From: Physcomitrium patens | Lineage: Eukaryota; Streptophyta; Bryopsida; Funariales; Funariaceae | Reading direction: 5' to 3' | NCBI RefSeq assembly: GCF_000002425.4 | Contig: NC_037275.1 | Span: 8,950,450-9,014,449, forward strand | DNA length: 64,000 nucleotides | In this document: positions 1 to 37,170 of the stretch, one piece after another | How positions within the stretch are numbered: position 1 is the stretch's first letter | Layout: each line of letters opens with the position of its first letter | Notes under the pieces: model-generated | The model's input: the letters and a program-made list of their open reading frames with translations, nothing else | The model's database searches: none | What the model was told of the DNA's origin: nothing | Program-made: the position numbers and the translations under genes

Positions 1-1174
1 CGAGACGGTACGCCACTAGATTGATTTGCTTTTGGATGATAAATGGTCCCAATCTTCGATAGTTCAACTTATCACATGGTCGCTTGGTCTTGATATTCCA
101 TCGAAGAAGCCATGCTTTATCTCCAATTTTGAAAATAGGTGCTTGATTCCGAAATCTATGTGCAGACACCTTGTAGGATTCTTGAGCGGATTATAATTGA
201 AGCTTCAATGTATTTTGAAGCTCTAATAATTGTTTCGCAAATCCTTCAGCTGCTGAATTGTTATTTGTTGATGAACTCAATAAATCAAGCTTTGGATGAT
301 ACCCATAGTTGGAAAAGAATGGTGTGTATTGTTTCGACGCATGGAGGGTGTTGTTATATGCAAACTCGGCTACTGGCAGATATGTGGTCCAATCGTCTTG
401 CTGATAATTGATGCTGCATCGTAAGTATTGTTCCAAGACTTGGTTCACCCGTTCCGTTTGGCCGTCAGTTTGAGGATGAAAAGCCGAAGAAAGCTTGATA
501 TCTACCTTCAGTATCTCAAAGAGAGATCTCCAAAACTTTGATATGAACTGGGTTCCTCGATTTGATACGATATCATCTGGTAGTCCATGATATCGATACA
601 CATTATCGACAAAGAGCCTTGCTGTGACTTCACTGGACGATGTCTTCTTGCAAGGGACAAAGTGTGCCATTTTTGTAAGCCGATCTACCACGACAAAGAT
701 GCTGTCAAATGAGTTCGATGATGGCAGGTCTGTGATGAAGTCCATGGAAATTGAAGACCATAGTCGACGTGGAATCGGCAATGGCTGTAGGAGTCCATAA
801 GGGCGATGCCGAGGATTCTTGGATCTTGATTAGATGTCACAGGAGAGAACAAAATCTTTCACATCCTTCCATATTTGGGGCCACCAAAAATCTCGAGAAA
901 TAAGCTCCAAGGTCTTGTTGAATCCAAAATATCCCGCAGCTGGAAAATCGTGGCGAGATTGAAGAACTCGAAGTCGTGCTGGTCCTTTTGGAATATATAA
1001 CCGCTCTTCAAAGTGTAAAAGATCTTCTTCCACTTTCAACTTGTCGTCATTGGCACACTGCTTAATATCAATGGCTACTGAATCTTCAATGGTTACGGCA
1101 GGTACCTGATTCAGGAAGTCAGCATGAATTGACATAATAGTAGCGCAAAGCTGAAATTGCTCTGGCTTCAACAA
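1..1174 (-). pseudogene. E1 integrase (interrupted by stops)
   Basis: Integrase module of E1, acting in the nucleus to insert cDNA. The N-terminal zinc-binding part is in 830-1174, the catalytic core in 191-781, and the C-terminal region (GDKAWLLRWNIKT-type) in 1-190. In-frame stops sit at 830-832 and 191-193. The first catalytic Asp lies in VVVDRLTKMAHF and the Glu in HPQTDGQTERVNQ. The second catalytic Asp, expected in an SDRG motif, reads SNRG (codon AAT), which should abolish strand transfer. The chromodomain would be beyond the left edge. A short + strand ORF at 139-411 is only an antisense shadow. Confidence 0.88.
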
Positions 1175-1183
1175 TGTTGTACA

Positions 1184-2494
1184 TTATTGATCAAACGCTG
1201 CTTCTCCAACCTTTGGTACAAGATACGATCTCCTCAATAAGGCATCAGATAGTCCTTGTTGCTTTCCAGGTCGATAAGTGATAATAAAATCAAACCTAGA
1301 TAGCAACATACTCCATCGAGCTTGACGTCGATTTAGAACTCGAGCCGACATGAAATACTCCAAATTCTTATGATCTGTGTATACGGTCACTGGATGTGCA
1401 GCTCCTTCAAGAAAGTGATGCCATTCTTGGAAAGAATCCACTATAGCAAGAAGTTCCTAATCGTGGATCTCATAATTGATTTCAGCAGCAGAGAACTTTC
1501 GAGAATAGAATGCAACCGGATGGAGCTTCTTATCTTCTCTCATTTGTGAAAGTACAGCTTCCAAAGCAAAATCCGAAGCATCAGTTTCTAAATAGAAGGC
1601 CTTTGTAAAGTCTGGATGTATCAAGATTGGAGCCGTAGTAAATGCGGTCTTCAGGTTTTGAAATGCCTTCTTTGCTAGAGGTCCCCATTCCAGCTTATCC
1701 TTGCATGTCAACCGAGTGAGAGGAGCAGCAACTTGAGAGTAATTCTTGATAAAGATCCAATAGAAGTTGGCAAAACCAAGAAAGCATTGTACATCTCTAA
1801 CCGTCTTTGGAACCTCCGAGGACACGATTGCTTCCACCTTCTTGGGGTCCATCTTCAAGCCTTCCGTAGTCGCAACGAACCCCAAAAACTCCATCTCTAT
1901 TTGGTGAAATAAACACTTTTCCAACTTGGCATATAGTCCTCGCTCGCATAGTTTCTCCAATACCAAACGAACGTATTTTTCATGCACTTCCTCATTTTTG
2001 GAGAATATCAAAATATCATCCAAATAGATGACAACAAAATCGTCAAGGTATTCTCGGAAAATGTCATTCATCATATGTTGAAAGACCGTTGGAGCATTGG
2101 TAAGACCAAAGGGCATGACATTATATTCAAAATGGCCATACCTTGTACGGAACGCTGTCTTCCACTCATCTCCTTCCTTGATTCGTACGAGGTTGTAAGC
2201 TCCCCTTAGATCAATTTTTGTAAAGATCCTTGCACGTCCAAGTTGTTCTAAGAGACGAGAAATCAAGGGTAACGAGTAACGATTCTTCTTTGTTATCTTG
2301 TTGAGGCCTCGATAGTCCACGCACATCCGCAATGAGCCATCTTTCTTCTTCACAAATAAGATGGGTGCTCCAGCTGACGATTTTGAATGACGGATGAAGT
2401 TCTTGGCTAGATTCTCGTCGATGTACTTCTGCAACTCCGCCAACTCCATCTGCGATAGATTGTAGATTGGGCCAAAAGGCGGTTGTGCTCCTTC
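1184..2494 (-). pseudogene. E1 reverse transcriptase and RNase H (stops)
   Basis: RT followed by RNase H, copying element RNA into DNA in the cytoplasmic particle. Visible RT motifs: [42 protein letters not shown] and the catalytic YLDDILIFS box, all intact. RNase H follows with YLETDASDFA and [10 protein letters not shown]. The reading frame is interrupted at 2495-2497 (between protease and RT), at 1457-1459 and at 1184-1186. The fold and motif order are typical of chromoviruses; the breaks mean no full polyprotein can be made from this copy. Confidence 0.9.
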
Positions 2495-3160
2495 CTATAA
2501 GTCTATGGCGCAATCATATGGTTTGTGTTCCGGTAGCATGTCGGCATTTTTTTTTTGAAACATGTCTTTAAAATCATTATATTGCTCCGGTATACTTGCT
2601 GTCGAGATCTTTTCCCCGGTAGTTGGAGCCGCATAAATGACAAACGGTGTGCCTCCCTTGGACAATCTTATAAATGCTCTTGCTCCAATAAATAAGGATT
2701 TCTCTATTCGAGGTTTTCTACTAGGCTTGCTCTTGGGTGGTATTGTGGGAAAGGTCATCTTCCGCAACTTCCAATCTATGGATGGATTATGCTTTTCCAA
2801 CCAGGAAAGACCAAGAATAACAAGATTTGATAGGGTTCTAATAATATTGAAAATAATATGACTACTATGGTCCTTAAACGTCACTTCTATAGGTTCTGAT
2901 TCATGGGTGACACTACCAGACAATAAAGGTCGTCCATCTATGACCTCAACGTGAACAGGTTTGGATTTTTGTACTAAAGGGATCTTATGACACTTTGCAA
3001 ATTCTTCGTCTAAGAAACAAGCAGATGCTCCTGAATCTAATAATGCTAAGGTTCTCAGTTTCTGAGGGCCATCAAGCAAAGGGATTGTAAAACAAAGGGC
3101 AGGTTGAGCGAAAAGAAAGGAACCTGGTCGTTGTTGCGATATTTCACTGTTCAGCTGCAC
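2495..3160 (-). pseudogene. E1 aspartic protease, start of pol
   Basis: Retroviral-type aspartic protease that would cut the polyprotein. The active-site motif LLDSGASACFL is present near residue 40 and the flap-side motif VILGLSWLEKHNP further on, both usual for Ty3/gypsy. The open frame begins upstream of 3160 in the -1 frame relative to gag and overlaps the gag stop, so expression would need ribosomal frameshifting. A TAG at 2495-2497 closes it just before RT. Confidence 0.88.
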
Positions 3161-3165
3161 GGTTC

Positions 3166-4212
3166 CTATTGTGGCTGGGCATCCTCGTTTTCCTGAATAA
3201 ACGCACCCCTAGTCTTGATAATATGTCGATTTTGCTTCTTGGGGCAGTTTCCAACTTTGTGGCCTTCTTCACCGCAATACAAGCATAGACCTTCCTCCAT
3301 ACGTCGCTTTTTTTCTTCTAGAGTAAGAGATTTGACACGTATCGCATCAATTTGCATGTCTTCTATCTTTGAATGTGAATTCATGCTGCTTGCCGACATA
3401 GTTGGGGTGTGGCGAACAGTATGTTGTCTTGAACGTTGGACTTGGCAACGTTGGAATAGGCGATTATCGCACTATACAGCTTGGCTAATAGCTTCGTTGA
3501 GCGTTTGCGGATCAGGAAGAGTTAACAGCAAATCCTTCACATCATCCCTTAAACCCCAATAGAATTGACTCATCAATGCTTCTTCGTCCCAATTGATGTT
3601 GCATGCTAATTGCCTGAAGTCCGATGCATAGACTGATGTAGAACGCATCCCTTGTCGTAGTGACCGGATCTTTATTGTAGCCCATTGAACCTTGTCGTGT
3701 TCACCAAATGCTTCGGCAAATGCCTCCAAAAAGGTTTCAAAGTTGTTTAGTATGGACGATCGTTTCTCAAACAAAGGAGCAAACCATGATAGAGCTTGTC
3801 CTGTAAGTAAGGTTCCTACAAGCCCAACACGTGACTCCTCTGTTGGATAGCGTTCGGGCTGTAAAACTGTTATCAATCTGATTTGGTTGACGAATCCTCG
3901 AAACTTGGAACGTGTACCATCGAACTTGTCAGGAAGGCTAACTTGGGGTTCTTTATGTTGTAGAACCAGCGGTACTTGTCGAACCTGAGGCAAAGTTGCT
4001 TCTCCAAGTGTAGAAGTTTGAGACTGATGCAACCTAGTTTGAGGCTGGTGCAACCTAGATTGTGCCATCCCACATGCTCCATCATTATGAAGCCTTGCTA
4101 CGACTCCTTCAATCTCTGCAGTTCTTTGCGATAACGTAACAAGGGCATTCATGATAGCATCTAACTTGGACTCTGAACTTTCCGTCATACTAATGTCTTG
4201 GCCCCCGATCAT
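3166..4212 (-). pseudogene. E1 gag with CCHC zinc knuckle (one stop)
   Basis: Capsid/nucleocapsid protein. It starts at an ATG at 4212 and runs to a TAG at 3472-3474, then resumes in the same frame to a stop at 3166-3168. A retrotrans_gag-type core is visible (DKFDGTRSKFRGFVNQI, then ALSWFAPLFE). The nucleocapsid knuckle CLYCGEEGHKVGNC has all four zinc ligands in the CX2CX4HX4C spacing. The end of gag (Gln-Pro-Gln-stop) overlaps the start of pol in the -1 frame, an arrangement seen also in copies 2a, 2c and 2d. Confidence 0.87.
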
Positions 4213-4479
4213 TCTAAGAGAAGGACAGAAAAGACTCTACAAGAAGGCAATATTGGTTTAGAGGAGGGTACTCCGCAACCTCTAAAATGCCTTAAGAGCT
4301 TCAAGAAAAGGGATAATCCACTCTCTCCAAGAAGAATAAGACTCCAATATTGTAACAAAAGAAGTATCAATTTAGAGGAGGGTAATTTGCAACCTCTAAA
4401 GTGCTAGTACACTTCCAAGCAGAGGGGTAATCTATACTCTAACAAAGAAGAAACTAGCTCTGATATCTGAGGTGAGTGA

Positions 4480-4490
4480 AGTCTCGACAA
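4480..4490 (-). promoter_or_regulatory. E1 self-primer binding site
   Basis: Minus strand TTGTCGAGACT lies 2 nt inside the LTR end and is the exact 11-nt complement of the predicted first 11 nt of the element mRNA (4619-4629). This is the geometry of self-primed Tf1/sushi elements. A different motif resembling a tRNA-iMet site (ATATCAGAGC, about 4457-4466) lies about 25 nt further in. Confidence 0.7.
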
Positions 4491-4628
4491 ACTGTCACGG
4501 ACACAGAATACAGACTTGATATCTATCAAGAAGTTCAAGAAGAACTGGCAAGAACTAGATTAATGAGATGAATACAAGAACAACACTAGAGAGGTGAGCT
4601 AGAGCTCCAAGAGATGTGTTGTCGAGAC

Positions 4629-4662
4629 TGAAGAACTCTTCAGCCTCGATCCCAATATATAC
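4629..4662 (-). promoter_or_regulatory. E1 LTR core promoter: TATA box and predicted start
   Basis: On the minus strand TATATATT (4655-4662) is followed 32 nt later by AGTCTCGACAA, whose first base at 4629 is the predicted mRNA start. The same spacing occurs in the LTR at 63645 and in the relatives, and the 11 nt after the start pair with the primer site at 4480-4490. Confidence 0.65.
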
Positions 4663-4670
4663 TCCTATTT

Positions 4671-4876
4671 AGGAAGCTTCTCAAGCAACTTCTACTAACT
4701 AGGAAGCTTCTAGAAGATTCCAGAGACTTGTTTCTAGAAGGTTCTAGAAACTTATCTCTAGAAGGTTCTAAGGACTATGTTCCTAACATCTTCTACTAAC
4801 TAAGAAGCTTCTAGAAGGTTCCAGAGACTTGCTTCTAGAAGGTTCTAGAAACTTGTCTCTAGAAGGTTCTAAGGAC
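4671..4876 (-). promoter_or_regulatory. Heat-shock-element array of the E1 LTR
   Basis: Alternating GAA and TTC triplets at 2-nt spacing (the nGAAnnTTCn heat-shock-factor code) recur in long phased runs: 4703-4721, 4731-4750, 4804-4822 and 4831-4850, with partial runs between. Several contain four consecutive perfect units. They lie upstream of the TATA box in the sense of transcription, the position expected of a heat-inducible enhancer. Confidence 0.75.
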
Positions 4877-4889
4877 TATGTTCCTAATA
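4691..4889 (-). repeat. 101-bp tandem duplication within the E1 LTR
   Basis: The segments 4691-4791 and 4792-4889 are near-identical and start with the same TCTACTAACTA(G/A) sequence. Each carries the same set of heat-shock-element clusters and the LTR-end sequence AGGACTATGTTCCTAA, so the duplication doubles the enhancer region and even the LTR terminus. Confidence 0.85.
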
Positions 4890-5990
4890 GATCCATCATA
4901 AGTTCATCATTTAAAATGATGTATTCTAAGAAGTCGACTTGAGTAGTATGAAATACACACTTTTCTATCTTGGCATAGAGTCCTACATCTCTTAGTTTTT
5001 GTTATACTTGGCGAATATGAAGTCTTGTTCTTTTGAATTCTTAGAATAGATTAAGATGTCGTCTAGATAACAGACAACAAAATCATCTAAAAACTCCCGA
5101 AAGACATCATTCATTAGATGTTGGAATGTTGTTGGTGCATTTGTAAGTCCAAAAGGTATGATGTTGTATTTGACATGTCCATACCTTGTTCCAAACGCAA
5201 TCTTTCATTCATCTCCTTCTTTGATGCATACTAGATTGTATGCTCATTGTAGATCTATTTTTGTATAGATCTTAGCTTAATTCAACTGATCAAGGAGTCC
5301 AAATATCGAAGGTAGTGGGTACCTATTTTTGATAGTGATTTTGTTGAGTCCTCGATAATTGACACACATCCACAATTATTCGTTTTTTTTCTTCACAAAT
5401 AAAATTGGAGCTCATGTTGTAGATTTGGAATGACGTATGAAGTTCTTGGCCAGATTTTTTTCAATATACTCCTTGAGTGCAGCCAACTTATTTTGAGATA
5501 AATTATAGATTGGTCCAAATGGCTGTTGTGCTCTTTTTTGAAGGTCAATTGAGCAGTGATAGGAATAATATTTCGGAAGAGTATCCGCATTCTTCTTTTC
5601 AAATATATCTTAAAAATCTTGATATTGGCTTGGAATGCCACTTGATGTCTTTCCACTAGTAGAAAGTTGTGTGGCATAAATGACACAAGGTGATCTTTCT
5701 TTTGTTGCATGTAAGAAAACTCTTGTACCTACAAATATAGGTTTAATTATATTGAACTTATGTCTTTCTACTTGATTAATTATACTCTTAGTTATACTTT
5801 CAAAAAAGTCAAGTCTACGAGAAATCCAATCTATTTTAGGGTTATATTTTTGTAGCCATAATAAACCTAAAATGATTGGATTAGAAAGAGATCTAATGAT
5901 ATTAAATATTAGAAAGCTACTATGACCATTAGTTTTAGGCGTTGTACAAGGTTCCAGCTACTTGGTCCCTATTGTAGCTGGACAAATTCA
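4890..5990 (-). pseudogene. 2a protease and N-terminal reverse transcriptase (fragments)
   Basis: Degenerate pol. RT fragments lie at about 4900-5550, including the stretch around the active-site region at 5040-5160 and the start of the finger domain near 5390; protease fragments lie at 5700-5960. Frames shift and stops are frequent. The gag-pol overlap (CTACAATAGGGACC on the minus strand, 5965-5978) is conserved with E1. Confidence 0.75.
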
Positions 5991-7188: not shown

Positions 7189-7746
7189 TATTAAGGATAA
7201 GAATATGATAAAAATAAATAAAGAAGTGAGACTTCTCTCAAAGAAAGATGAAAAAATAGAAATGACTTGATATATATATTAAAAAAGAAACTGGAATGGA
7301 TATTGCCAAAAGCCAAGGAAACTAAAGACCGTTGAAACTAGACTAGAAGCAAGAAAGGAGTTGACAAGAATGAAGAAGGCTTCACTCTTGTTTCTATATA
7401 TACTATCTAATTAAGGGCTACATGGCAACGTTCTATAAGACCTCCAATATGTGTTGACTTTGTAAGACACATGCCTTGACTTACAAGGCAAGTTTTTCTA
7501 CATGTGGGTCACATAATTAGCTTGATCTTCAAGCTAACAACATGTGTGGCACATGGCCAACTTGTTGACCACGTTTCTAATCCAAAAAGTCAATTAAAGA
7601 CACCTATAAAGTCAAAGTAGCATCTATGTAGCTTCTTAGAAGCTTTTGTAGTAAATACTATAGAATTAACTTACTTTTACTTACTTTTACTTACTTCTAT
7701 GTATTTATACATGTAATTATTCACTTACATGCGTATGTCTGTGACA
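7189..7746 (-). repeat. 2a 5' LTR
   Basis: Sense ends TGTCACAGACATACGC and CTTAATA. It contains TATATATAG near 7401 and, about 32 nt downstream, the predicted start ATTCTTGTCAA (7361-7371). A palindrome AGCTTCTTAGAAGCTT at 7630-7645 may be a remnant heat-shock element. Homologous to the LTRs of 2b, 2c, 2d and 2e. Confidence 0.8.
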
Positions 7747-8771: not shown

Positions 8772-10092
8772 TGTCGTATTACGTGCTTTCTTGCTCGAGA
8801 ACGCGTCGGGCGTCTGGCTGTAGAAGGTAGTATGGAGATCCACCGATAGTCAAGCAGTTTATCAGTTTTTACTGCTGGAATATAAACGACTGCAAGAATA
8901 CACCGTAAATCTTTACTGATGCCCTTCGACTGCTTGTCGAAGTCCTTTTTTTTTGCCCCAGCCGGTAGGTCTCTAGACGTTACAGAGAACCCCGAACAAC
9001 CCAAACTGTTAATCTTCAATACCCCTTTGTACTTACGATCTTGTATCCACTGACTGTCCTGTTAGATTAACCCAATAAATTTCATTCACTCCGCATACTC
9101 AATCCTATAGACACCTCTTTAATCCTTCAATCACAGACGTAACTCGATTTTACAAAACAGTCAAGAGTATTCAAACCCACTTCATTTAAAAATCCCGATT
9201 CACCATTACAACACTGACTTCAGCAGCGATTGCTTTAGTCGTCCCAAAACTCTACGAAGAAGAAAAATCCAAATTCTATGTCTTTCCTTCCCCAACCCGA
9301 AGCATGAAGCTTCTCTCTCTAATTCCCTTGATCTTCCAAAAACCTCCAATGAAAAACCGAACTGGTAACCTTGCAAAAGCTTGAAAACTCGCTCCCCCCC
9401 CGATTCCCCCCAAAAAAAAACCTTCCCCCCTCAAAACTATCCTCTGAATTTCTTCAATCTTCCGTCTTAGATCCGGAATTGGCTCCCACCTCAAGCTTGG
9501 ATCCGAAATTGGCTCTCGCCGTCAAGCTTTCTCCTCCGTTTTTACCTTTAAGAAATCCATTTACCGAAAACAACGTTCCCTGAAATGGCACAGAGACCAG
9601 GACAGCTTGAAACAGAATCGAATCCCGTAATCGGGACCACATTGAGTCGCCCGACCAATTCAGGTCCTATATTGGGAAAGATGCCCGTAGTAACCTGGAT
9701 GTTCCCGTAATTGGGTCAAATTGGTCCTCGCGTCAAATTGGCTAAGACCCGTAGTAAGACCTGGATTTCCCGTAATTAGACTGCATTGGGTTGACCGGCC
9801 AATTCAGGTCTCATATTGGATAAGAGGACCCGGATTGGATTATCGAAATTGGATCCAATTGGCTCCTCGAACCCGTCATGTGAATTGATCCTTCTCTTCC
9901 TGCTGACTCCCGTTATTGGAATCGAACGGAGCATTTCAGTATGCCCCGGCTGACTGTAACGGAGTGACTGAACCTGACCACTCAGTATTTGTACTGGAGT
10001 TGGTCGAAGCTCCCAATATTCGAGGTAATTGAATATTAATAAAATTCCCCTTTCTTTTTATTTTCACTGTATACTCGTGTTACAACACGACA
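8772..10092 (-). repeat. E3 3' LTR
   Basis: The 1321-bp left LTR, ending TACAACACGACA. It contains repeated CCCGTAAT(C/T)GGG-like and CCCGTAGTAA motifs between about 9620 and 9780. Small ORFs inside it occur identically in the other LTR and have no coding support. Confidence 0.92.
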
Positions 10093-10106
10093 TCCACCTC
10101 CTCTGA
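10093..10106 (-). other. E3 polypurine tract
   Basis: On the minus strand AGAGGAGGTGGATG directly precedes the 3' LTR, the expected site of plus-strand priming. Confidence 0.6.
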
Positions 10107-10154
10107 ACCTGTGCATCCTCCGGTATGCACCAATTTACCCAATTGCTGTTTGAT

Positions 10155-11855
10155 TCAGAATATATCTCCTACGTCTTTGTCCAGTTCGTCTTCGTCACCT
10201 TCACTATCCATATCACTTTCATCTTCTTGCTGCGGAATCTCTATACCTTCATTAAGGTCTTCCATATTCATCTCTGCGTGTCTTCGTTTAAATATTTTTA
10301 CTCGCTTCCCTGCAATTGGTATTTTCAATTTTGTACCATCTAACTCCCGTAATGAGTAAGTCGCATTATCATGAACAGTTGTTGTAACATATGGTCCAAA
10401 CCAAGGTTTTGAAAATTTCCGCAAAGTACTATGTTGATTATCCAGACTATTGTCATAAACAAGTACCCAGTCACCTTCCTCGATTGCTTTTGGTCTCAAT
10501 CAATGTTGCTTATCGAATCGCGTCTTGTTTTGTAACCTTGCTCTTTTTAACCTTTCCAATGCTATCTGGACATCTTCCGTTCTTTGCTCCAATTGTCGAA
10601 TCCTAATAGCCAAAAGTTCTTCTCTTGTCAATCCATCTTCCCATGGTAGCATACTCCAAGTAAGTACCTTTTCTTCAATCGGCATAATTGGTTTTTGACC
10701 TGTCATAAGTTCTACTAGCATATATCTTGTCATCGAACTATGTGTTGTTCGATCAGCCCATAATGCAAATGACAAAAGCCGTGGCTACTCTTTAACCTTC
10801 CTATTACAAGCTTTAACTAATGCTTTCACAATCGGCGGGTGACCGCGTTCGCTTTTTGCATTCCCTTCCGGATTATAAGCAGTAGTCAGTGATAGTTTAA
10901 CTCCACATCTTTCAAAGAACTTACGAGCTTCTTGTGCATTTAATTCTCCACGATCTGAAGTGATTTTTCCTACGCACCCGTAACGGCAAATGACATCTTC
11001 AAGCAAAAACCTATAAATCTCCTCTGTAGATTTTGTCCTCAATGCTCTTCCTTCTACTTGATTTGATAAATCTTCACGAGCTAAAACCAAATATCTCATC
11101 TGCCATAACCCAACCGGCATAATAACCAAATCAACAACCCATTTAAAATGAATAGCCAGAGGATACGTAGGATGAAGACCATCTCGATGTCAGATATTAG
11201 AATACGATTGACAGATTTCACATGACTCTACAAATGAGAGCACATCTCGATACATATTTTTCCACCAATATCGTTCCTTGAGTTTAGCAAAAGTAGCCCA
11301 GATTCTTCTATGCCCTGCCCATAAACTATCATGAAACTCCTTTAATAATTTTAGTTTTTCTTCCCTTTTGCCTATCACTCGTTGTGGCATCCCAATTCCT
11401 TTCTTTGGTCTCTTCCATAAGAATCCATCTCGAAGTAAAAATCCATATGCTTTTTTTCTTATTTGTTTGAATTTTTCTGTAGACCAATTCCCTTGCTTAG
11501 ACAAGGTATTCAAATAATGACCAATATTCAATAATTCTCCTTCATAAGGTTCTTCAAGAAATAGCTTGTCTTCTCTGTTGAGATTTGATATTGAATAGAA
11601 TTTCAATCCGACGTCATCAATGTCTTCAACCATTTCGTCCTCCCTCTCGTATCTTGCTCGAGATAGCATGTCTGCTACTAAATTGTCCTTTCTAGTGATA
11701 TGCTTAAATTCTGGATTTAGTGACTTAATATAAGCAATCCATCTCAACATTGCAATATCTGGCGTTGAACAGTTAATAATCATTCCAAGCAATGGCAAGG
11801 AATCTGTTTCAATTACTACTACTGCCCCAATCAAATAGTCCTTTTCAGCTTTCAT
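10155..11855 (-). pseudogene. E3 integrase and C-terminal pol (stops)
   Basis: The frame opens with the end of RNase H (VVIETDSLPLLGMI) and continues into an integrase zinc-binding region (end CEICQSY, near 11200), catalytic core and C-terminal domain. Catalytic residues are visible: Asp in LAREDLSNQVEG, Asp in TSDRGELNA and Glu in NPEGNAKSERG. Stops interrupt at 11190-11192, 10785-10787 and 10500-10502; the stop at 10155-10157 is probably the natural end. The C-terminal part (EEGDWVLVYDNSLDNQHS, WFGPYV) replaces a chromodomain, of which there is no sign. Confidence 0.85.
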
Positions 11856-11933
11856 AGCCGAAACGACTCCCCAAAGTTCTCTTTTGACTTGCGAATATGC
11901 ACGCTGACGAATACTTAAAACTTTAGCCCCAAA

Positions 11934-13640
11934 TCAAACTGCAAATCTACTCCCATTTGAATCATCTTGACCCACAGCCCATCCAACGGTAATTGGACTA
12001 GCGTCTACAGTAAGAATCACTGGTCTATTGCACTTATAATCAACCTTCCTCAATATTGGAGGTGACATCAATAATTTCTTCAATCTTTGCATTGCTTGAA
12101 TATGCCTTTCTCTCCATTCAAATTGGTAACCCTTGCGTAACAGTTCATATAATGGATCCGCTATGTGAGCAAAATGAGGGATCCAGATTCGATAAAACAT
12201 ACATGCATCCAAAAACCTGCGAACCTCTGTTAAAGAACCACAATCCTCTTTCATCCTTTCAATTGCATCAACTTTAGTCGGATCTGGTTTTCTTCCGTAA
12301 GATCCGCATAAATGTCCAACAATTACAACCTCTCGTACTCCAAATACGGACTTCATATCCGATAATGTAAGATGAACTTCTCCAAGCCGAGTTAAAATCT
12401 TTTCACAATCTTGTATATGATCAACAACATATCTGCGACACCCCCTCGTATCTAAAGTTTCATCCTTGTCTCCTTCTCTGCACCCTTTTATAAGAACATC
12501 ATCCAGAAAAGGCATAGTCTTTTCCGGAATAAAATCTCTCAATACCTTATTCATCTCATTCATCATATGCGCAACTGAGTTGGTCGCGCCTTGAGGAAGA
12601 GTGCACATTCTAACCAATCCAAGTGGTGTCCTCATTGTTGTCATATCTCTACTTCCTTCGGTAAGTTGAAATTGATCATAACCTGAATACAAATCACCCA
12701 TTGAATAGATCGCCCTTCCAGCAAACGCCTCAGCAAATTCATCCACAATAGGTCCAATTCCTGCATTCCTGACAGTTACAGCATTCACCGGCTGCATATC
12801 TTGAATAAACCGTAGTGACCCATTCTTCTTAGGTACCGTAAACCATCGACTAGAATACGGTGCAAATGAAGGTTTTAATATTTTCATCTTTATCTTTTCT
12901 TTCAATAGTTCGACCAATTTAGGTAAATGTGCCCTCGGTACTGGAATCGGTCTTAGATTCCAAGGTACATGCGGTACAATGAAGATAACCATAGGTGTTA
13001 TAATATTTGGATCCACACACCCAATTTCATGAGATTCGAAGGCAAACAATCTACCTTGTTTAGCCAACATCTTTTTGAAGCAAGTAATTTCCTCCAGCAA
13101 TAAAGAACCATCAGAACCAATCTTCAATTCTTCAAAAGTCTCTTCAGTAAACTGATGTCCAATACTCATTGGATCTCTTAAACTTGCTTCTTTTGATGTT
13201 TCTCCCATTTGTTCTTTAGAATCCTCTGGTAATGGTCCGGCAACAGGCTTTACCTTCTTATCTACCATTTTATATCTCGTCTCTACTGTGACTTCTGGTG
13301 CTTGAAAAGATTCAAGCATGGTATAAACCTCTCTGGAATGAACCTCAACAATCTTATCATTATCCCCTAATCCAATAGATGTAATCAATTCCAATGAATC
13401 TTCCAGCCCATTTTCTTCATAAACACCCAAAATCCTCTCATCATCTTGCAATGTACCTATCTTGCATAACTGTCCTTCAATATCATATAATCTTTTTCTT
13501 TCTTTTCTTTTAAAATCATCAACTTTTTTATACCTAATATTTCCATTCTCCAATATACCAATAAAACTCGCATCAAAGACACCTTCATCTCGCGAGAGTA
13601 CCTCCTCTTTTGTACCTCCATAATCTCGCTTTACAGTGGT
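11934..13640 (-). pseudogene. E3 reverse transcriptase and RNase H
   Basis: Pol N-terminal part in the -1 frame relative to gag-protease. It is open from about 13640, overlapping the gag stop, to a TGA at 11934-11936. RT motifs: VPKKNGSLRFIQDMQPVN, GDLYSGYDQFQL, LPQGATNSVAHMMNEM and the catalytic FLDD at 12498-12509, where most gypsy elements have YLDD or YVDD. RNase H starts at LTVDASPITVGWAVGQ. The start codon is not defined because expression is presumably by frameshift. Confidence 0.87.
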
Positions 13641-16003
13641 ACCTCCCCAAAATCCTTAAATCCTTCAACAATCTTTGGCAATGGTTTCTCCCTCAACCTA
13701 TCTCGATTCCGTTCATGGTTAGGAGGTACTGTTAGAAATTGTACAGCTTTCCTCCCATTTTCGCTCCGTACCCTTGCATAAGCAGAACCATTGTCAAGTA
13801 CCTTTGTTTCCATCCGTGTTGCCGTGATATAAGGTTGTCCTAAAATCAATGGATAAGACGTTGTATCTTGAACGAAGAAATGTTGCTCCGTCGCAACATC
13901 CCCAATCCGAATTTTGACATCTGGACAAGCTCCATATAATTCGCCTCGTGTGTTATTAGCTGCTCGTATTGCCCATCCATGTTCCATATCAATTGGCCAT
14001 TTTTGCTTCTTATAAAGATCTTTAGACATGAGATTTATTTCAGAACCATGGTCCACCAAGGCAACTATTGGTTCTTCTATATCTCCTACCTTCACCAATA
14101 CCTCAGTAGTTGCCGTTGCCCAATGCTTTCGAGTATAATGGCTCAAAGTTTCTATTTCCTTGTTACTAGAATCTTTGAAATGTACTCGCTGATTATACCC
14201 ATTCTTTTCATTTGTTGGTTTCTTGTAACCAATATCAACCTCTTCTTCATCTCTACATATTCTTGCATCAATAGCATGACTCATTCCAGTTTCGCTCATT
14301 AATTGCCTCTTTCGCTTAATGCTGTCAATGATAACATCATGAAACTCCTTCTTTGCAATTCCCAAGACTTCTTTCAATGTGAATTCCACCTTAGCATTTA
14401 ATATACGTTCTTCCAACACCCCTTTCAAATTTGTTGCCGCTTCAATATCAGAAAGTAGCTTATAAGCAATTGATTTGCCCTTATCTTTTGTCTCCGTTGT
14501 TTTTTCTCCCAATGATGCTGAGGTATCCTTTACAGGCAATTCTTGTGAAGCTGCCTCCCGAGCCTTGTCTCCTCGAGTTTGCCTCTTAAAAGAATTTCCT
14601 TCTCTAGTATCATCAAAATTTCCTCGTCTTTTTTCTTCCATTAAAGCTTCATGTTGGCTCTTAGCAATATATGCATGAACTGAAAGAGACTCAACAGGAT
14701 CCTTCCAATCTGTTCTTCCCCGTATTGTAGCTGCAGTTCTCAATAACGATTCTCGAGGTAATTTCCCTTCTTGCATTGTAGAAACGGCAGAAGCCCAAAA
14801 CTCACTAGTTTCCGTACTTCCACCAATTTCATCATCTACTCTAGCACCATAACTTGCACTTTCTCGTGCTACTGTTTCATGCTCTTTTAAGTAATCTTGA
14901 ACCAATGCTCTCATTCCTTCCTTGCCAAAATTGGTTTGAAGAAGATCCTCCCTATCTTTCAATGCTATCTTCCCATCTTTCCAGCAAATAATTCCCTGCC
15001 GTATCATATTATTAAATTCATTGCAATCTTTTCTAGTGTGTGAAGCATCATCACACCAAATGCATCTTTGTACATATTCTTGTTTTGAAACATTCTTCGA
15101 ATTGTTTGTAGAAGTATTCTCTTCAAGTCTTACTAATTTGATTTGAAGATCTCGCATTCCTCGTATAATTTCTTCCATCCTTATATCTGCTTTCTTTGAT
15201 AAGGATGTCGAAGGTTGAACTGTAGGCATTGTTGGTGGAGTTGTACGTACTGGAGCTTTGGATGCTTGTACTGTTTTCGGGATATTGCTCCTATCCTTCC
15301 TCCTTTCTCTTTTTGTAAGCAACCCCACCGCATCTTCAACGTTCTTCTACTTTATTGTCAATCCTTCATCTTCTTCTTTGTCTTCAAGAAGGAGTTCTAA
15401 TTTCCCTTACAATTCTCCATCAACAGCTTGAAGAAATAGATCAACTTTGTTCAGCTCCAATGTCAATTTTTCTACCTTCGATAATTGAGAGTACTGCCTC
15501 TCAAATTCCCTTAGTAGCTCTGTTGCTTGCAAATTCTTATTGGGCCGTTCAATCCATCCTAGAAACAGCTTCTTAGTAACGCGATCAGCATCTTCCAAGA
15601 AATATTCGTCTTTCAATGCATGTGAAAAATCTTCCCATGAATTCCCACAACGATCCGTAATCGATGTAATGTGGTTCCTTATCTCCGGTATCGTGGCAAG
15701 TCCAAATAGTGCAACCATTTTCTTCTCAGAAACCTGATTTAATTCCATTTCACGAACATAACATCTTAAATACCTTGAAATATTCCTCCCATCAAATTGA
15801 TCAATTTTATTGACCACTGCTTGCAATGCTTTGGTTGCCAAAGCTTCCTTTCGATCATTGCTTTGTTGTTGCTGCATTGACAATGAGAAGGCTTGAAACA
15901 AACTAGCAATAGACGGATCCATGTGCATACCTTGTCCTTTAGAAGACTCCCCACCAGAAACTTCTCCCAAAAATCCTTCAAAATTTTTATTTTCGTTTTC
16001 CAT
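13631..16003 (-). pseudogene. E3 gag-protease (two stops)
   Basis: Starts at ATG 16003 (MENENKNFEGFLG). Gag is interrupted by TAA at 15407-15409 and TAG at 15347-15349, then is open to 13631. A CCHC zinc knuckle CIWCDDASHTRKDC is present at about 15040-15085. The protease active site reads VDHGSEINLMS, with His where Asp-Thr/Ser-Gly is usual. LILGQPYITATRMETKVLD further on is the second conserved protease block. The protein ends just as the pol frame begins. Confidence 0.83.
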
Positions 16004-16052
16004 AAAAATAAAGATAAAATCAACCGAAATCCAATACCTTCTACCTCAAGCT

Positions 16053-16070
16053 TTCACGTCGGGTTCACCA
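16053..16070 (-). other. E3 primer binding site candidate
   Basis: On the minus strand TGGTGAACCCGACGTGAA starts 4 nt inside the 5' LTR. It begins with the TGG expected opposite a tRNA CCA end, but I cannot match the 18 nt to a particular plant tRNA. Confidence 0.5.
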
Positions 16071-16074
16071 CTTA

Positions 16075-17395
16075 TGTCGTATTATGTGCTTTCCTGCTCG
16101 AGAACGCGTCGAGCGTCTGGCTGTAGAAGGTAGTATGGAGATCCGCCGATAGTCAAGCAGTTTATCAGTTTTTACTGCTGGAATATAAACGACTGCAAGA
16201 ATACACCGTAAATCTTTACTGATGCCCTTCGACTGCTTGTCGAAGTCCTTTTTTTTTGCCCCAGCCGGTAGGTCTCTAGACGTTACAGAGAACCCCGAAC
16301 AACCCAAACTGTTAATCTTCAATACCCCTTTGTACTTACGATCTTGTATCCACTGACTGTCCTGTTAGATTAACCCAATAAATTTCATTCACTCCGCATA
16401 CTCAATCCTATAGACACCTCTTTAATCCTTCAATCACAGACGTAACTCGATTTTACAAAACAGTCAAGAGTATTCAAACCCACTTCATTTAAAAATCCCG
16501 ATTCACCATTACAACACTGACTTCAGCAGCGATTGCTTTAGTCGTCCCAAAACTCTACGAAGAAGAAAAATCCAAATTCTATGTCTTTCCTTCCCCAACC
16601 CGAAGCATGAAGCTTCTCTCTCTAATTCCCTTGATCTTCCAAAAACCTCCAATGAAAAACCGAACTGGTAACCTTGCAAAAGCTTGAAAACTCGCTCCCC
16701 CCCCGATTCCCCCCAAAAAAAAACCTTCCCCCCTCAAAACTATCCTCTGAATTTCTTCAATCTTCCGTCTTAGATCCGGAATTGGCTCCCACCTCAAGCT
16801 TGGATCCGAAATTGGCTCTTGCCGTCAAGCTTTCTCCTCCGTTTTTACCTTTAAGAAATCCATTTACCGAAAACAACGTTCCCTGAAACGGCACAGAGAC
16901 CAGGACAGCTTGAAACAGAATCGAATCCCGTAATCGGGACCACATTGAGTCGCCCGATCAATTCAGGTCCTATATTGGGAAAGATGCCCGTAGTAACCTG
17001 GATGTTCCCGTAATTGGGTCAAATTGGTCCTCGCGTCAAATTGGCTAAGACCCGTAGTAAGACCTGGATTTCCCGTAATTAGACTGCATTGGGTTGACCG
17101 GCCAATTCAGGTCTCATATTGGATAAGAGGACCCGGATTGGATTATCGAAATTGGATCCAATTGGCTCCTCGAACCCGTCATGTGAATTGGTCCTTCTCT
17201 TCCTGCTGACTCCCGTTATTGGAATCGAACGGAGCATTTCAGTATGCCCCGGCTGACTGTAACGGAGTGACTGAACCTGACCACTCAGTATTTGTACTGG
17301 AGTTGGTCGAAGCTCCCAATATTCGAGGTAATTGAATATTAATAAAATTCCCCTTTCTTTTTATTTTCACTGTATACTCGTGTTACAACACGACA
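16075..17395 (-). repeat. E3 5' LTR
   Basis: The 1321-bp right LTR, the same length as the left copy. Differences noticed are all C/T or G/A, about half of them at CpG. On its right side it abuts copia integrase sequence at 17396. Confidence 0.92.
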
Positions 17396-27470: not shown

Positions 27471-29006
27471 ACGAGTCTTTCATTGAAATTATTTAGTTTC
27501 AATAATCCTTGTTAATTCGAGATGCAGAAGCTGATTTTTGCTGCATCAAAGTTGACACAATAATCTCTCCGACATGAATCTGTGATGACCTCAAACCCTC
27601 AACTGTTTGATCAAAGTAATCCTGTTCTGTAAGAATTACGGAATGATACCTATTCCCGCAAGTTGAAGATGCGAGCCAAAATGCCTTGTGTTCTCTAGGT
27701 GCTGCCCAAAGTTTAAGAATTAGCTTTGCGAATTTAAACAGCCATTATGACTTTACTTTATTTTTTTATTTTTTTTGAGACTTCCTGCTGATCCCTTCAC
27801 CTCGTTTATCCTTTCTCTTTCCTTCATTCTTTTTATTTTGATATTTTGTAACCATTGAATGTGAAAAATGAAGACCTGTGTATGTGAAAGATGGCCAATC
27901 TGCCCCTCAGCTTCTCCCAACTCAACAGCATCCAAGGTGTTGTGTTGCTCAAACTCAGACATTTAGATTATGTATCTCTTGCAATCAAATGTCATGTCTT
28001 ACTAAAAGTTGGACTTTGAAGCTTGGTTATCTAGCAATGCAAGGGCATTCAAGCATGTTGTAGTGTTGTGCACTCAACTTAAACTTGGTTACTCACAAAA
28101 ATGCCCCCCTAGTTTGCAGCTATTTTCCATGTTATTAGTTGGTAGTTAGGACTACTTAAACCCAAGCCCTCATTGCCACAAATCATGGCCTATACAACCT
28201 CCATAAGGAAATTTAAGAGTCACTTGCCCCACTAATGCATTTAGGATCCTCTAGACTATCCACCTCCATGATCATGTATCCACACCACTTTCAATTGCTT
28301 TCATTCCACTTCAAGTATTTACTTACTTTTCAAATATATTTCTATCGTTGTGTACAATCGCCTACATCCCTCTACTACTTCAACTTGAACAAAATCAACA
28401 CCACATTCAAACATTGAGTAAGCAACTATTTTGGAGCATTTTAATCTTGTATTGAATGATGCATGCTCTTATAATAACAAATACAAAGTCTTTGTATCAA
28501 TTTTATTGACTTCTACCTACAAACCTTGTGTCTTTTCTCATAGCTTCAATACATTTAACCAAAGACTAGGATTATTTTCTACTTCCAACTTACTACTAGA
28601 TATATAACCAAATAACATTTGCCTCATAGGGGTGATGAATACTCTTATTTGTAAGGTGACTTCTTGGATGTGCTAAGTATTGTCAAAAGATGATAGACAA
28701 TATATTTGTTCTGCAAAGCGACATTAGTATTTGTTGTAGGCTATTGCCTAGGTAAAAAATAAAGTACTCTTTTGTTTGAGTTGCATCGAAGAAAGACACT
28801 TAGATTCATACAATAAGATGACCCTCTTTTGTTTATTTGTATATTATTATGCATTGCAATATTACAAATATAAGGAATTGAAGTTCAAAATTAATAGAAT
28901 ACATGTGTATCAAACTACTAGGTTGGAAACTAAAGTAGGCTGAAAACGCTTGCATTTTTAGTAACACATTGATCTAAAGATAAAAAATAGTGAAAGAGGA
29001 AGGTAA
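27471..29006. other. 3' flank of the DG1-like gene, no gene seen
   Basis: Holds the 3' UTR and intergenic DNA. A T-rich stretch lies at about 27755-27780. The sequence becomes steadily more AT-rich toward the 2b LTR at 29007. Short ORFs (27753-27962 minus, 27878-28063 and 28235-28417 plus) show no domain. No repeat shared with the rest of the window was noticed here. Confidence 0.5.
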
Positions 29007-29535
29007 TATTACAAACATATATATTTACATAGATAAGAAGTATTATATAGAAGATAAATATAGATAGATTTGATATTATTTTATGATAAAGCTTCTCAAA
29101 AGCTTCATAGATGCATATATGACTTCAGACATGTTTATAGTTGATTAGTAGATTAAAAACTTGGCCAATAAGTTAGTTATACATTGCATGTGCTAACAGC
29201 TTGTAAAATAAGCTAACCACATGGTGTACATATAAGAAACTTATCTTATAAGTTAGACACATATCTTATAAGTTACACATCTCTTAGAGGTCTTATAAAA
29301 TATTGCCATATAGCTTCTAATTAGATAGTATATATGAAAGCAAGAATAAAGTCTTCTTTACTCTTATCAATGCCTTTTTAGTCCTTAGTCTTTTTTCAAG
29401 ACTTTCTATTCTTCTTTTCTTTGATAATAGCTATTCTAATCTAATGCTATATCACAATTGAATGTCTTTTTAATCTTTTTGAGTGACATAAGAATATATT
29501 GATTTTTTAATTCGTTGAGATTCATATCTTTGACA
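29007..29535 (+). repeat. 2b 5' LTR
   Basis: Starts near TATTACAAACATATAT (TG decayed to TA) and ends CTTTGACA. TATATATG at 29329 precedes the predicted start ACTCTTATCAA (29360-29370) by 31 nt. Confidence 0.7.
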
Positions 29536-29537
29536 AT

Positions 29538-29548
29538 TTGATAAGAGT
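29538..29548 (+). promoter_or_regulatory. 2b self-primer binding site
   Basis: TTGATAAGAGT, 2 nt after the LTR, is the exact complement of the 11 nt at the predicted mRNA start (29360-29370). The base that differs from the family consensus (A for G) is changed in both partners. Confidence 0.68.
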
Positions 29549-29769
29549 GCTAACTCATTGTTCTTACTTTGATTTTAGAAGTGAGTAGATTATTTGACTT
29601 CTATTGTTACATTTCAAAGACTGTGGACTATCCACCTTTGAACTAACATTTAGTTTTTTTAACACTGATATTTTTTTTAAAGAGAGTGGATTATTCCTCT
29701 TTGTAGAAATTTTCATTTTAAATTAGAGATTGTAGATTATCCTCCTCTAATTTGACTTTTGTCTTTATT

Positions 29770-30850
29770 TAAGTTGTCTATAGAAGGAAAATTTATAGAT
29801 ACTACTCTTAGTAGAAGTAAGAATAGATTTGCAACTATTGTGGATCTTTATGACCTTATCAATACTCTTAGGATAAAAATCTCACGTATCTCTAATATTA
29901 ATCATAAATGTAGTATTCCTACATTTGTATAAGAATTCAACAATAAAGTTTAAAGTCTATGCCAAGAAGTTGTGCAATTAAGAAGCAAATAAATCAAGTT
30001 CACAATTGAATTTGAAAAGTCTTACTACTATAAATATGAGAAAAATAATGATAAATATGCTAGTGAAATTTGATAGAACAAGATCAAAGTTTTAAGGATT
30101 TCTATAATAAATAAAGCTCTAATTGAAATTGTATCCTAGTATTTCAATGGATTTATTCAAGTAAGATTCATGGATACACTTTTATTTGGAAGTGCCCTTT
30201 TTTAGTTTATACTTTTGATGGAAAAGGATTTACAAAAATTCTACAACTTAAATTCATTCTTGGAAATTCTTATAGCCACATTTGGAGAAAGTGATTGAAA
30301 AAAGATAATAGAGACCAAACTTATATCTTTATAATAAAGATCACGTTTAGTCACTACATATGCTATTGAATTTCAAAACCTTGCTTACATTGTAGATTGA
30401 AACAATAAAACTTTCAATAATCAATTTTGGTATAGACTAAAAGACAATGTCAAAGACTTACTATTGATGATGCCATGAGCAGATTCATTAGAGCAATTTA
30501 TTGCTTAAGCCATTGCATATTACTATTGATGATGCCATGAGCAGATTCATTAGAGCAATTTATTGCTTAAGCCATTGCATATGACAATTGACTCTTTGAA
30601 AGATGCCAAAAACAAAGATTTGGTTGAAGAGATACAAGTCAACTCAAGTCAGAGCTACAGCTTCTAAATTCATAAAAGCTTATTTAGAAAATTGAAACTT
30701 ATGCAAATTGATACAATATGTTTTAAACCTCCTATTGAACAAGAAGAAACTCAATGCCATCAAAAAGATTTGTATTTATATTGTAAAGAACCTAAGCACA
30801 CTATTCAATATTGTCCAAAAAATAATTCAATTATAGAATGAGGAGCATGA
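29770..30850 (+). pseudogene. 2b gag (shredded)
   Basis: Fragments include the N-terminal TIVDLYDLINTLRIKIS, also seen in 2d gag, a capsid part around 30120-30470 and a zinc knuckle LYCKEPKHTIQYCPK at about 30778-30822 that keeps its Cys and His ligands. Multiple stops interrupt it. It carries a perfect 62-bp tandem duplication at 30458-30581. Confidence 0.72.
30458..30581 (+). repeat. Perfect 62-bp tandem duplication in 2b gag
   Basis: Two adjacent identical 62-bp units (30458-30519 and 30520-30581), each starting TTACTATTGATGATGCC and ending CATTGCATA. Identity is complete in an otherwise decayed element, so the duplication is recent relative to the insertion. Confidence 0.92.
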
Positions 30851-30959
30851 TTGCCAAAAAAAACAGCATGTCAAAAAATCAATTTCTTCAATTTTAATTG
30901 GAATCTTATGTAATATCTAATAAAGGTTCTATTTTCTTCTAAGATCCTTTATCTGATTT

Positions 30960-33137
30960 ATAATAGAAAATTATTTAAGACCAAGAAATTACAAAATATT
31001 TTTCTTAGATTTAGGAGCCTTAACCTATTTTATAAACAAAGACTTTGTAAAAAAAGATATATTTTTAATTCAAAAAATCAAATCCATGCATATAAAAATA
31101 ATAGATAATTATTTATTGAATTTTGAAGATATTATCCATGAAATTGTTCTTTTAGATGTAACAATTAATGGTCATAATAAGTTAATAATATTTAATATAA
31201 TTAGATCTTCTTCTAATCCAATTATTTTAGGATTATTGTAGCTAGAGAAGTATAATCCTTAAATAGACTAGATTTTTCATAATCTTAATTTTACTTGTGA
31301 TTTAATCCAGTATTTTCTAATCAGATAGAAATTCATAAGTCAAATATGTCCAAACTCTTATTGATAGGTACAAGAACTTTCATGCATGTTGCAAAGAAGG
31401 ATCAACTTTTATTATATATGTCAAACCTATTTTTGATGGAAAAAAGACTTCAAGTGGCATTTCAAGCCAATATGAAGATTATTAAGATATTTTTGAAAAA
31501 AAAATGTAGATAGGCTTTCAAAGTATTATCCTTATGCTTGTTCCATTGATCTTCAAGAAGAAGTTCAACCACTATTTATACCAATGTATAGCCTATTATA
31601 AAACAAGTTAGCTATATTCAAAGAATATATTGACAAAAACTTGACTAAAAACTTCATATACCATTTTAAATTTCCAACAAGGGTTCCTATCTTATTTGTG
31701 AAAAAATAAAAGATAGATCTTTACGGATGTGTGTAGACTATCAAAGACTCAATAAGATCACCATGAAGGATAAGTATCCTCTATCTTTGATTTTAGAACT
31801 TCTTGATCAATTGCATTAAGTAAAGATTTATACAAAGATGGATCTACAAAGAGCATACATCTTAATATGTATTATAGTAGGAAATGAATGGAATATTGTG
31901 TTTTGAATCAAATATGGACATTTTGAATATAATATCATGTTGTTTGGATCAATGAATGCATCATCTACTTTTCAATATCTAATAAATGATGTCTTGTGTG
32001 AATTTCTTCATAACCTTGTTATCTATTATTTGGACATCTTAATCTATTTTAAGAACATAGAATAATATAAACTTCATATTTGTTGTATGTTACAATAACT
32101 AAGAGATGCAAGATTATATGCCAAGATAAAAAAGTATGTACTTTATACTACTCATATTGACTTTTTACGATGTATTATTTTAAATGATGACCTTATGATA
32201 GATCCTAAAAAAATCTAAACTATTATACATTGGAAGATCCCAAAAATAGTCAAAGATGTATAATATTTTTTACGATTTGCCAATTATTACTAGATCTTCA
32301 TCAAAAGCTTTTTTTAAATTGTGGCTCTTCTTACACACTTGACATCTAAAGGCAAACTTGAGTGAAATAGAGAAGTTGAAGCATCTTTTGAAGCCTTGAA
32401 GATATTATTTATTTTTATACTAATATTATATTATATTAGCTTTTTTTAGATATTTTTTATAAAAATAGATATATTAAATCTTATTATAGATATAATTTTG
32501 TCACAAATGGAAGTAGATGACAAGCTCCATCTAATAGCGTTTTATTCTAAGAAATTTTTAGTAATTAAGATTAACTATAAGATTTATAATAAAGAACTTC
32601 TTATAATTATAGATTCATTTCAAGAATGGCGCCATTATCTAGAAGATGCTTCTAATCTAGTTATTATATATATAAATCATAAGAATCTCAAGTATTTCAT
32701 GTAAACATGTATTTTGAATTATTGCCAAGCCTATTTGAGCGTGTTTTTATTAAGATTTGATTTTAAGTTCACTTATTAACTTAAAAAATAACAAGCTTTA
32801 TTAAATGTCTTTTCTAGATGTTTTTCTTATCTTATACTAAAAGAAACAAATGCATCTTTTGATCAATAAAAAACAATCTTCTTGAAGTTAGAGCATTTTC
32901 ATCTTCAAGCAATGAAATCAACATTGATTGTTGATTTAACTTTTTTTAAGCAAGTTCAATCGAGTATGTCCTCTGATCATCTTATTTATGATATTAAAAT
33001 AATTATTTTAAGTTTCATAATACTTTTAAGTTTAAATTCAAGAATAATTTGTTTTATTTTGAAAGATGATTATATATTCCAAAAGATAATATATGATTAC
33101 ATATTCTTTAATCTTGTTACAACTTTCTAGCAATTAA
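30960..33137 (+). pseudogene. 2b pol: protease, RT, RNase H, integrase N-terminus (shredded)
   Basis: Protease remnants at 30990-31250 (FLDLGALTYFINKDF in place of the DSG active site; IIRSSSNPIILGL). RT at about 31580-32340, with YYLDILIYFKN where YLDDIL is expected. RNase H at 32498-32704 (LHLIAFYSKKFLVIKINY, SFQEWRHYLEDA). The integrase N-terminus follows at 32882-33130. Stops and frame changes are frequent. Between 32705 and 32880 the sequence continues the RNase H-integrase linker without an ORF. Confidence 0.78.
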
Positions 33138-33211
33138 TGTTAAAGATAAGAATTCAATAAAATAAAATAAAAAAATAAGACTTTCTCAAAGAAATATGAA
33201 AAAATAGAAAT

Positions 33212-33215
<4 letters not shown>

Positions 33216-33255
<40 letters not shown>
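33216..33255. repeat. (AT)n microsatellite
   Basis: An uninterrupted AT dinucleotide run of about 40 bp inside the 2c 3' LTR. It is absent from the homologous 5' LTR, so it expanded after insertion. Confidence 0.95.
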
Positions 33256-33259
<4 letters not shown>

Positions 33260-33449
33260 TAGAAATTAAAATAGCTATTGCCAAAAGACAAGAAAACTAG
33301 AGATTCTTGAAACTAGACTAGAAAGTAAGAAACGAATTGACAAGAGTGAAGAAGGCTTCACTCTTGCCTCTATATATACTATCTACTTAGGATCTATGTA
33401 ATGACGTTCTATAGGACCTCCAAAAATGTGTTGACTTTGTATGATATAT

Positions 33450-34542
33450 TGTTGTGTCATATTTGTACACAATATATAAAACTAGATAAGAATTATGAAA
33501 TATATTATTTCTAAGTTTTTAATTAGTTAATTATTATCGAGTTTTAAAAAATTATCCTATTAGCAAAAAGCATTGTAGTTATAAACACTAAATTCATATA
33601 AAAAAAAGTTCTAAGATAATTAATTATTAGAGTATCTATTTTATATAAAATTTGATAGATATTTTTTTAATGGATATATAAATAAGCATAAAAATTTTTA
33701 TAAAAAAAGAAATTATGATTTGTAAGAAATAGAGATTTAAAGAAGGGAAAGAAGTTGGGGAATATGCTTACAGGAAAAAAAATGGATGCTTTAGACATGA
33801 AATGGCGGCTTGAGGCTTATAGTGGTGGAAGGATGATAAGATGCTTGAGTAGCAACGAGGAGGTCTCAAGTTCTAAACTCCATGGTGGCACATAGGGGAG
33901 AGAAAAAAAGAATATTTTTTAAAAATCATTAGTTAATTTATTAAAGATATCTAAAGAATTGGCCCGTTAATGCTTATATTAGGAGATTATGTTAGATGAT
34001 AAAGGGACTTGACACCTATAGGTAGGAGCAAGGAATCTCCCTTAATAGTAGCATGATGTATGATGCCTATGTCTTCTATATATTTATCTTTTTAATAGAT
34101 TGATACATAACTTCTCCTAAAAAAGAGGAAGCCATAAGTTGGTAGTGACTTAAAGTGAGATGGCATCAATCCTCTGGAATCTTCAACTTATTTTTTTTAA
34201 AAAATAATAAATATACAAATGTAAATAAAAATAAAAATAAAAAATAGAATTTAGGATTTAGAAGTAGGATTTAGGATTTAGAGTTAGGGAGTAGGATTTA
34301 GGATTTTCGAAAGGGATGACAATCCTCTTAAAAGAAAAATATAAGGACTCTCCAAGGAAATTTTGGTCTATTGTATTTTTATTTTATGAATGTTTATTGA
34401 AAGAAAAATTGATATTATGAAGACAAGTGAGTTTACAAAGAGAATTGTATTTATGAAGTGTTATATAGCTAGAAAATAATAGAGCAATTAATAGCAATTA
34501 GAAGCTCAATATTTTTTCAAAGCAATCTCTCTCTCCATAACA
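33450..34542. mobile_element. Insert D: probable solo LTR
   Basis: A 1093-bp block starting TGTTGTGTCATATTTG and ending CCATAACA splits the 2c LTR, which resumes immediately afterwards. TG...CA ends and loosely repeated flanks (ATAT/ATGT) suggest a solo LTR of an unidentified family. It contains a short run of GGATTTAG-like repeats (34250-34305). No ORF is seen. Confidence 0.5.
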
Positions 34543-37058: not shown

Positions 37059-37061
37059 TTT

Positions 37062-37079: not shown

Positions 37080-37170
37080 AATTGATAATAGCATGGAGTG
37101 TTAGGTTTTAACTGCCGGTTGAAGTAGATGGGAAATAGGTAGCAGTCGCAGAAGAATATAATGAAAGAGT

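Follow-up and report, generated by a model that had tools for sequence, protein, structure and literature searches.

The E1 family of retrotransposons in the moss Physcomitrium patens is very probably a high-copy chromovirus that primes reverse transcription with its own RNA, in the manner of the fission-yeast element Tf1. E1 itself lies on the minus strand of a 64,000-nucleotide (nt) stretch of DNA (NCBI RefSeq assembly GCF_000002425.4, contig NC_037275.1, positions 8,950,450 to 9,014,449 of the forward strand), and this whole stretch is the window whose coordinates are used throughout. The first-pass annotation of the window had called attention to an 11-nt primer-binding site (PBS), TTGTCGAGACT, 2 nt inside the long terminal repeat (LTR), as the exact complement of AGTCTCGACAA, an 11-mer that starts 32 nt after the start of a TATATA box and would form the 5′ end of the mRNA. 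Reading of the sequence, together with an LTR end fixed by a target site duplication (TSD), bears out the match and its position. The parts of E1, and of a second copy of its family, are located in the window as follows.

4493 to 4889, minus strand: E1 5′ LTR, 397 nt, defined by the LTR pair in the fetched locus L009 and the TSD GGATC
4890 to 4894, minus strand: 5′-side TSD GGATC; E1 is nested here in an E2-family element, within pol
4656 to 4661, minus strand: TATA box (TATATA), 32 nt 5′ of the predicted mRNA start
4630 to 4887, minus strand: U3 with heat-shock-element arrays, GAAnnTTCnnGAA and its complement
4619 to 4629, minus strand: predicted mRNA 5′ end and self primer AGTCTCGACAA, the start being placed by its distance from the TATA box
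4491 to 4492, minus strand: spacer GT that separates the LTR end from the PBS
4480 to 4490, minus strand: predicted PBS TTGTCGAGACT, exact complement of 4619 to 4629
4457 to 4465, minus strand: TATCAGAGC, resembling an initiator methionine tRNA (tRNA-iMet) site, 27 nt past the LTR end and recurring in the E1 and E2 families
3472 to 4236, minus strand: E1 gag piece (Retrotrans_gag, 8e-14)
2495 to 3208, minus strand: E1 protease piece (RVP_2, 6e-7)
1457 to 2494, minus strand: E1 reverse transcriptase (RT) and start of RNase H
191 to 829, minus strand: E1 integrase core piece (rve, 3.6e-8)
63645 to 64000, plus strand: 5′ part of the second E1-family copy (L010), with LTR start, TSD TAGGA and a predicted mRNA start at 63929 to 63939

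The E1 5′ LTR begins with TATTAGG and ends with CCGTGACA, and its 3′ partner, outside the window and upstream, is 95.2% identical to it over 396 nt. Because the 5-bp duplication GGATC, read by hand, flanks both ends of the element, the LTR end is set at ...GACA and the spacer is therefore the 2 nt GT. Pairing between the two 11-mers is confined to those 11 nt, with no extension into U3 or the LTR end. The second copy has AGTCTCGACAA at +63929 and an exact PBS 67 nt past the end of the window. An isolated pair of this kind proves little, since exact 11-nt inverted pairs no more than 600 nt apart are frequent in the window (63 on the plus strand and 54 on the minus strand, many of them AT-rich), and it is the recurrence across the genome that chance does not supply.

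Genome-wide pattern searches covered 470.4 Mb in 101 contigs. The E1 11-mer gave 7277 matches (3629 and 3648 on the two strands) versus 85 (47 and 38) for a reversed-pattern control. Sampling of E1 LTRs by flanking sequence only found 3790, with 2 in the control, and the first 30 listed were examined; all lie on one contig (C1), and some are paired LTRs from a single element. Of these 30, 21 carry AGTCTCGACAA unchanged and 9 carry it with one letter off, and the TATATA box stands 32 nt before it in 28. Thirteen of the LTRs continue into an internal leader (12 recognized by a script rule and L049 by eye), and their PBSs are exact in six, have one mismatch in six and a small indel in one. The remaining 17 LTRs, which are 3′ or solo copies with other DNA next to them, have 4 to 11 mismatches at the PBS place and serve as a built-in control. 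A script run on 20 fetched E1-family loci detected TSDs in 6, clearly in L010, L013, L014 and L025 and less clearly in L017 and L027. At the TSD-fixed LTR edge of E1 and of the four clear loci, the 11-mer adjoins and no TGG... tRNA site is present.

More telling evidence comes from E2, the family of the element into which E1 is inserted; across 991 nt of pol, that element and E1 share 67% identity. E2 follows the same plan with different letters, pairing the start ACTCTTGTCAA with the PBS TTGACAAGAGT. A linked E2 pattern in which pair positions 2, 6 and 8 were left free on both sides occurs at 4456 places genome-wide, and 3462 of these have exact ACTCTTGTCAA and TTGACAAGAGT; the control gave 0 in both cases. 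Twenty pairs were fetched from the first 21 listed. Sixteen are fully complementary and four have one mismatch, 19 begin their start 11-mer 31 nt after the TATA box, and a GACA LTR end stands two nt before the PBS in 17. In two E2-type LTRs that have no PBS (L047 and L049), unrelated DNA follows immediately on this GACA, which supports it as the E2 LTR end. From E1 to E2 the pair changes at position 2 from G:C to C:G, at position 6 from C:G to T:A and at position 8 from A:T to T:A. Three of the 11 base pairs thus differ, with both sides changed each time and pairing kept, whereas crossed E1/E2 pairs keep only 8 of 11. The odds that three random PBS changes among 11 would hit partners with the right bases are about 2e-4. 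These paired changes are the best evidence for Tf1-type self-priming.

By analogy with Tf1, transcription would start at the A of the start 11-mer, the mRNA would fold back so that its first 11 nt pair with the PBS, RNase H (a domain that the element encodes) would cleave after nucleotide 11, and RT would extend the freed primer into U5. Extension into U5 would place the LTR end 2 nt short of the PBS. If replication makes each new PBS as a copy of the primer, matching of start and PBS would follow from the mechanism itself. The distance from the TATA box suggests that E1 and E2 mRNAs have their 5′ ends at the start 11-mers. The geometry is supported because the LTR ends are fixed by TSDs, the copies number in the thousands and three paired changes separate E1 from E2, and to this extent the self-priming proposed in the first-pass annotation stands, with RNase H cleavage and the site of transcription start as predictions. 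A model of RNA folding, which takes no account of proteins or of the remaining RNA, gives the 11-nt helix a probability above 0.5 in all 20 of the 20 E2 copies and in 13 of 17 distinct E1-family copies with an exact pair.

Several observations weigh against self-priming. The folding model disfavors the helix in E1 of the window itself, where an alternative is 5.7 kcal/mol better and the helix probability is 0.001, and it does so likewise in L021, L022 and L028. The paired difference between E1 and E2 is a single comparison and perhaps reflects few events. No compensated variants are seen among the E1-family leaders; wherever one side is mutated its partner is unchanged, a picture of decay with no covariation. 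Within E2, a T:A variant (36 matches) is at about the level expected from independent decay. The TSD script drew a blank in 14 of the 20 E1-family loci, E1 included until it was read by hand, and the E2 LTR ends rest on the L047 and L049 junctions, not on TSDs.

That E2 variant, ATTCTTGTCAA with TTGACAAGAAT, was considered as a compensated subfamily and rejected, as independent decay suffices. T occurs in 10 of 100 E2 starts listed, and among the 20 E2 copies, which were not selected for pairing, T faces G in two, C faces A in one and C faces T in one. Ten further loci (L059-L068) were picked for the exact ATTCTTGTCAA/TTGACAAGAAT pair and so are not evidence of pairing.

The leaders of both families carry a second motif, TATCAGAGC, which we take to be identical to the usual tRNA-iMet primer site. 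Within one mismatch it is present in 21 of 21 E1-family leaders (18 exact), chosen by LTR end and PBS and not by the motif, and in 26 of 30 E2 copies (19 exact), versus 12 of 5000 random 40-mers. It lies 25-27 nt from the LTR end in the E1 family and 23 nt in E2. Sharing of a motif within one family is expected from descent; more informative is its retention in both families though the spacer differs. The full TGGTATCAGAGC was found in one insertion, L017 (seen again as L048). Four E2-like loci with the 11-nt PBS present and TATCAGAGC absent (L063, L064, L065 and L073) perhaps form a subfamily in which the motif is dispensable. No tRNA gene was found in the 64-kb window.

The retention of this motif would be explained if initiator tRNA-Met primes at the downstream site and the 11-nt pair serves some other function or is without one, and tRNA-Met PBSs are indeed described in chromoviruses of sugar beet (PMC3605345) and of the CRM group (PMC3059260). 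We regard this as highly unlikely. The beet PBSs lie up to 3 nt from the LTR (PMC3605345), in contrast to 23-27 nt here, and a primer at TATCAGAGC would shift the LTR end there; because the LTR end lies elsewhere, TATCAGAGC cannot be the main primer site now. The TGG that would pair with the tRNA's CCA is mostly replaced by AGA, TAA, TAG or CAA, and 4 of the 30 E2 copies lack the motif altogether. A second explanation, that the two 11-mers form an RNA structure with a role in packaging, dimerization or translation and that some other primer is used, draws on the fact that any conserved stem would show paired changes between families. It fails to explain why, in both families, one arm starts 31-32 nt after the TATA box and the other 2 nt past the LTR, and we judge it very improbable. 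A chance inverted repeat passed on to the copies of one master element, for which exact 11-nt pairs within 600 nt of each other occur often enough (about once per kb of the window), is extremely improbable and was already disfavored, given a second family with three double changes and all 11 pairs kept at the same places.

Under self-priming, TATCAGAGC may be a relic or a helper site. We tentatively raise the possibility, itself doubtful, that E1 and E2 record a switch from tRNA-iMet to self-priming, in which the old tRNA site was left behind in the leader, now 23-27 nt away from the LTR end, and may retain an auxiliary role in binding tRNA-iMet, while the self primer co-evolves with the PBS as families arise.

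By its domains E1 is a Ty3/gypsy chromovirus, as the first-pass annotation had it. The assignment follows from matches of its pieces to gag, protease, RT/RNase H and integrase and from the additional SH3_Tf2-1 and chromo domains of L026, a fetched E1-family copy with long open frames. The same Ty3/gypsy domains and chromodomain rule out the copia TAR lineage, a plant self-priming group. The L026 chromodomain, the one copy tested, has Y, W and Y aligned to the Y, W and Y/F of CDYL/HP1, so that the three aromatics of the cage (positions as in PMC3350952) are kept. Among plants, such type I chromodomains are reported to be restricted to non-seed plants (PMC3350952, PMC6317226), and the feature is common to the Tcn1 clade and to the Chlamyvir and Galadriel elements of non-seed plants. 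A protein search with a 788-amino acid RNase H-integrase-chromo piece scored 7971 matches among 8000 candidates. Among the best 120, the top ones are unnamed proteins with up to 90% identity, and those named by organism are from Powellomyces, a chytrid (55%), Tf2 of Schizosaccharomyces pombe (41%) and Planoprotostelium (42% over half of the query). No relatives were found in viral contigs. The E1 family is likely to belong to the Tcn1 clade of chromoviruses.

This placement bears on novelty. Neumann et al. (2019) report that the majority of plant Tcn1 elements have no tRNA sites and are predicted to self-prime, unlike other plant chromovirus clades (PMC6317226), and fungal Tcn1 has likewise been proposed to self-prime (PMC7175516). 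The novelty implied by the first-pass annotation is only partly borne out, since self-priming had already been predicted for the Tcn1 clade of moss and club moss. Within that clade, neither tRNA priming nor self-priming is reported to have been found for SM-Tcn1 of Selaginella (Novikova et al. 2010, PMC2864245). The E1 family shares with Tcn1 elements (PMC6317226, PMC2864245) an aromatic-cage chromodomain, the absence of a tRNA site at the LTR and organism-named relatives in fungi and protists; E1 and E2 add an 11-nt pair with known letters, paired changes between two families and the displaced tRNA-iMet-like motif. With Tf1/Tf2 of S. pombe, E1 shares an encoded RNase H and the complementarity of the first 11 RNA bases, as predicted for E1, to the PBS (PMC7175516). 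Typical plant chromoviruses (Tekay, Reina, CRM, Galadriel) differ in that their tRNA-Met PBS lies no more than a few nt from the LTR. Self-priming is also predicted in plants for the Ty1/copia TAR elements Houba and Osr-1 (PMC6317226), from which the E1 family is set apart by its domains. Self-priming itself is thus not new for the lineage, and E1/E2 is a better documented case; less expected are the displaced motif and the heat-shock-element arrays in U3. Among the titles and abstract openings covered, no description of the E1/E2 primer pair, paired changes or displaced site was found, and the per-element tables of Neumann et al. may well hold the family.

In the literature consulted, the mechanism of self-priming has been established in fission-yeast Tf1, whereas for plants it is a prediction. 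P. patens offers a laboratory model for such work. Its most abundant element, RLG1, has a chromodomain integrase and 5092 complete elements, is expressed in protonema, and has a phylogeny less congruent with that of the host, which was read as possible transfer from fungi (PMC7466625). By its published description, RLG1 resembles the E1 family in abundance and chromodomain, and E1 or E2 may correspond to it. With the main such element expressed in protonema, the prediction is directly testable on native transcripts. In addition, two families that keep pairing through base changes and carry a displaced tRNA-iMet-like site provide a handle on the evolution of the priming mode.

The U3 arrays are dense. 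Perfect three-unit heat-shock elements number 8 in E1 (4630-4887, minus strand) and 12 in the second copy (63635-63928, plus strand), versus shuffle means of 0.007 and 0.013, respectively, and 20 of the window's 22 such elements fall in these two U3s. At least one is present in 26 of the 30 sampled LTRs (L029-L058). RLG1 is reported to be repressed by heat shock (PMC7466625), and if E1 is RLG1 the arrays are unexplained. Match spacing on C1 (G000:C1:1006058-1018163, partly L016) suggests tandem LTR-internal-LTR-internal-LTR structures in the E1 family.

The E2 copies of the window are decayed. Downstream of a TATA box they carry starts that resemble ATTCTTGTCAA or ACTCTTGTCAA, and beyond these lie sites resembling TTGACAAGAAT or TTGACAAGAGT; most copies have a mismatch. 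Two copies can be placed as follows.

7361 to 7371, minus strand: E2-family predicted mRNA start ATTCTTGTCAA
7176 to 7186, minus strand: E2-family PBS, decayed, TTGCCAAGAAT, one mismatch to its own mRNA start
51874 to 51884, minus strand: E2-family copy 2, predicted mRNA start ACTCTTATCAA, mismatched to its own PBS at one position
51689 to 51699, minus strand: E2-family copy 2, PBS TTGACAAGAGT

The stretches rich in E2-type remains (28000-36000 and 48000-64000) are AT-rich, with 24-28% GC per 4-kb step, a composition such as prolonged C-to-T decay would leave; for E1 and the young elements, the 4-kb steps have 33-45% GC. One of these, at 36349-46244, is a very young element of another kind with 710-bp LTRs that are 100% identical, a gag match and ttttggcgccgctgccgggga after the LTR, and it is inserted in an E2-type copy. 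The other, at 8772-17395 on the minus strand, is a young LTR element with 1321-bp LTRs that are 99.4% identical and with RT and RNase H pieces.
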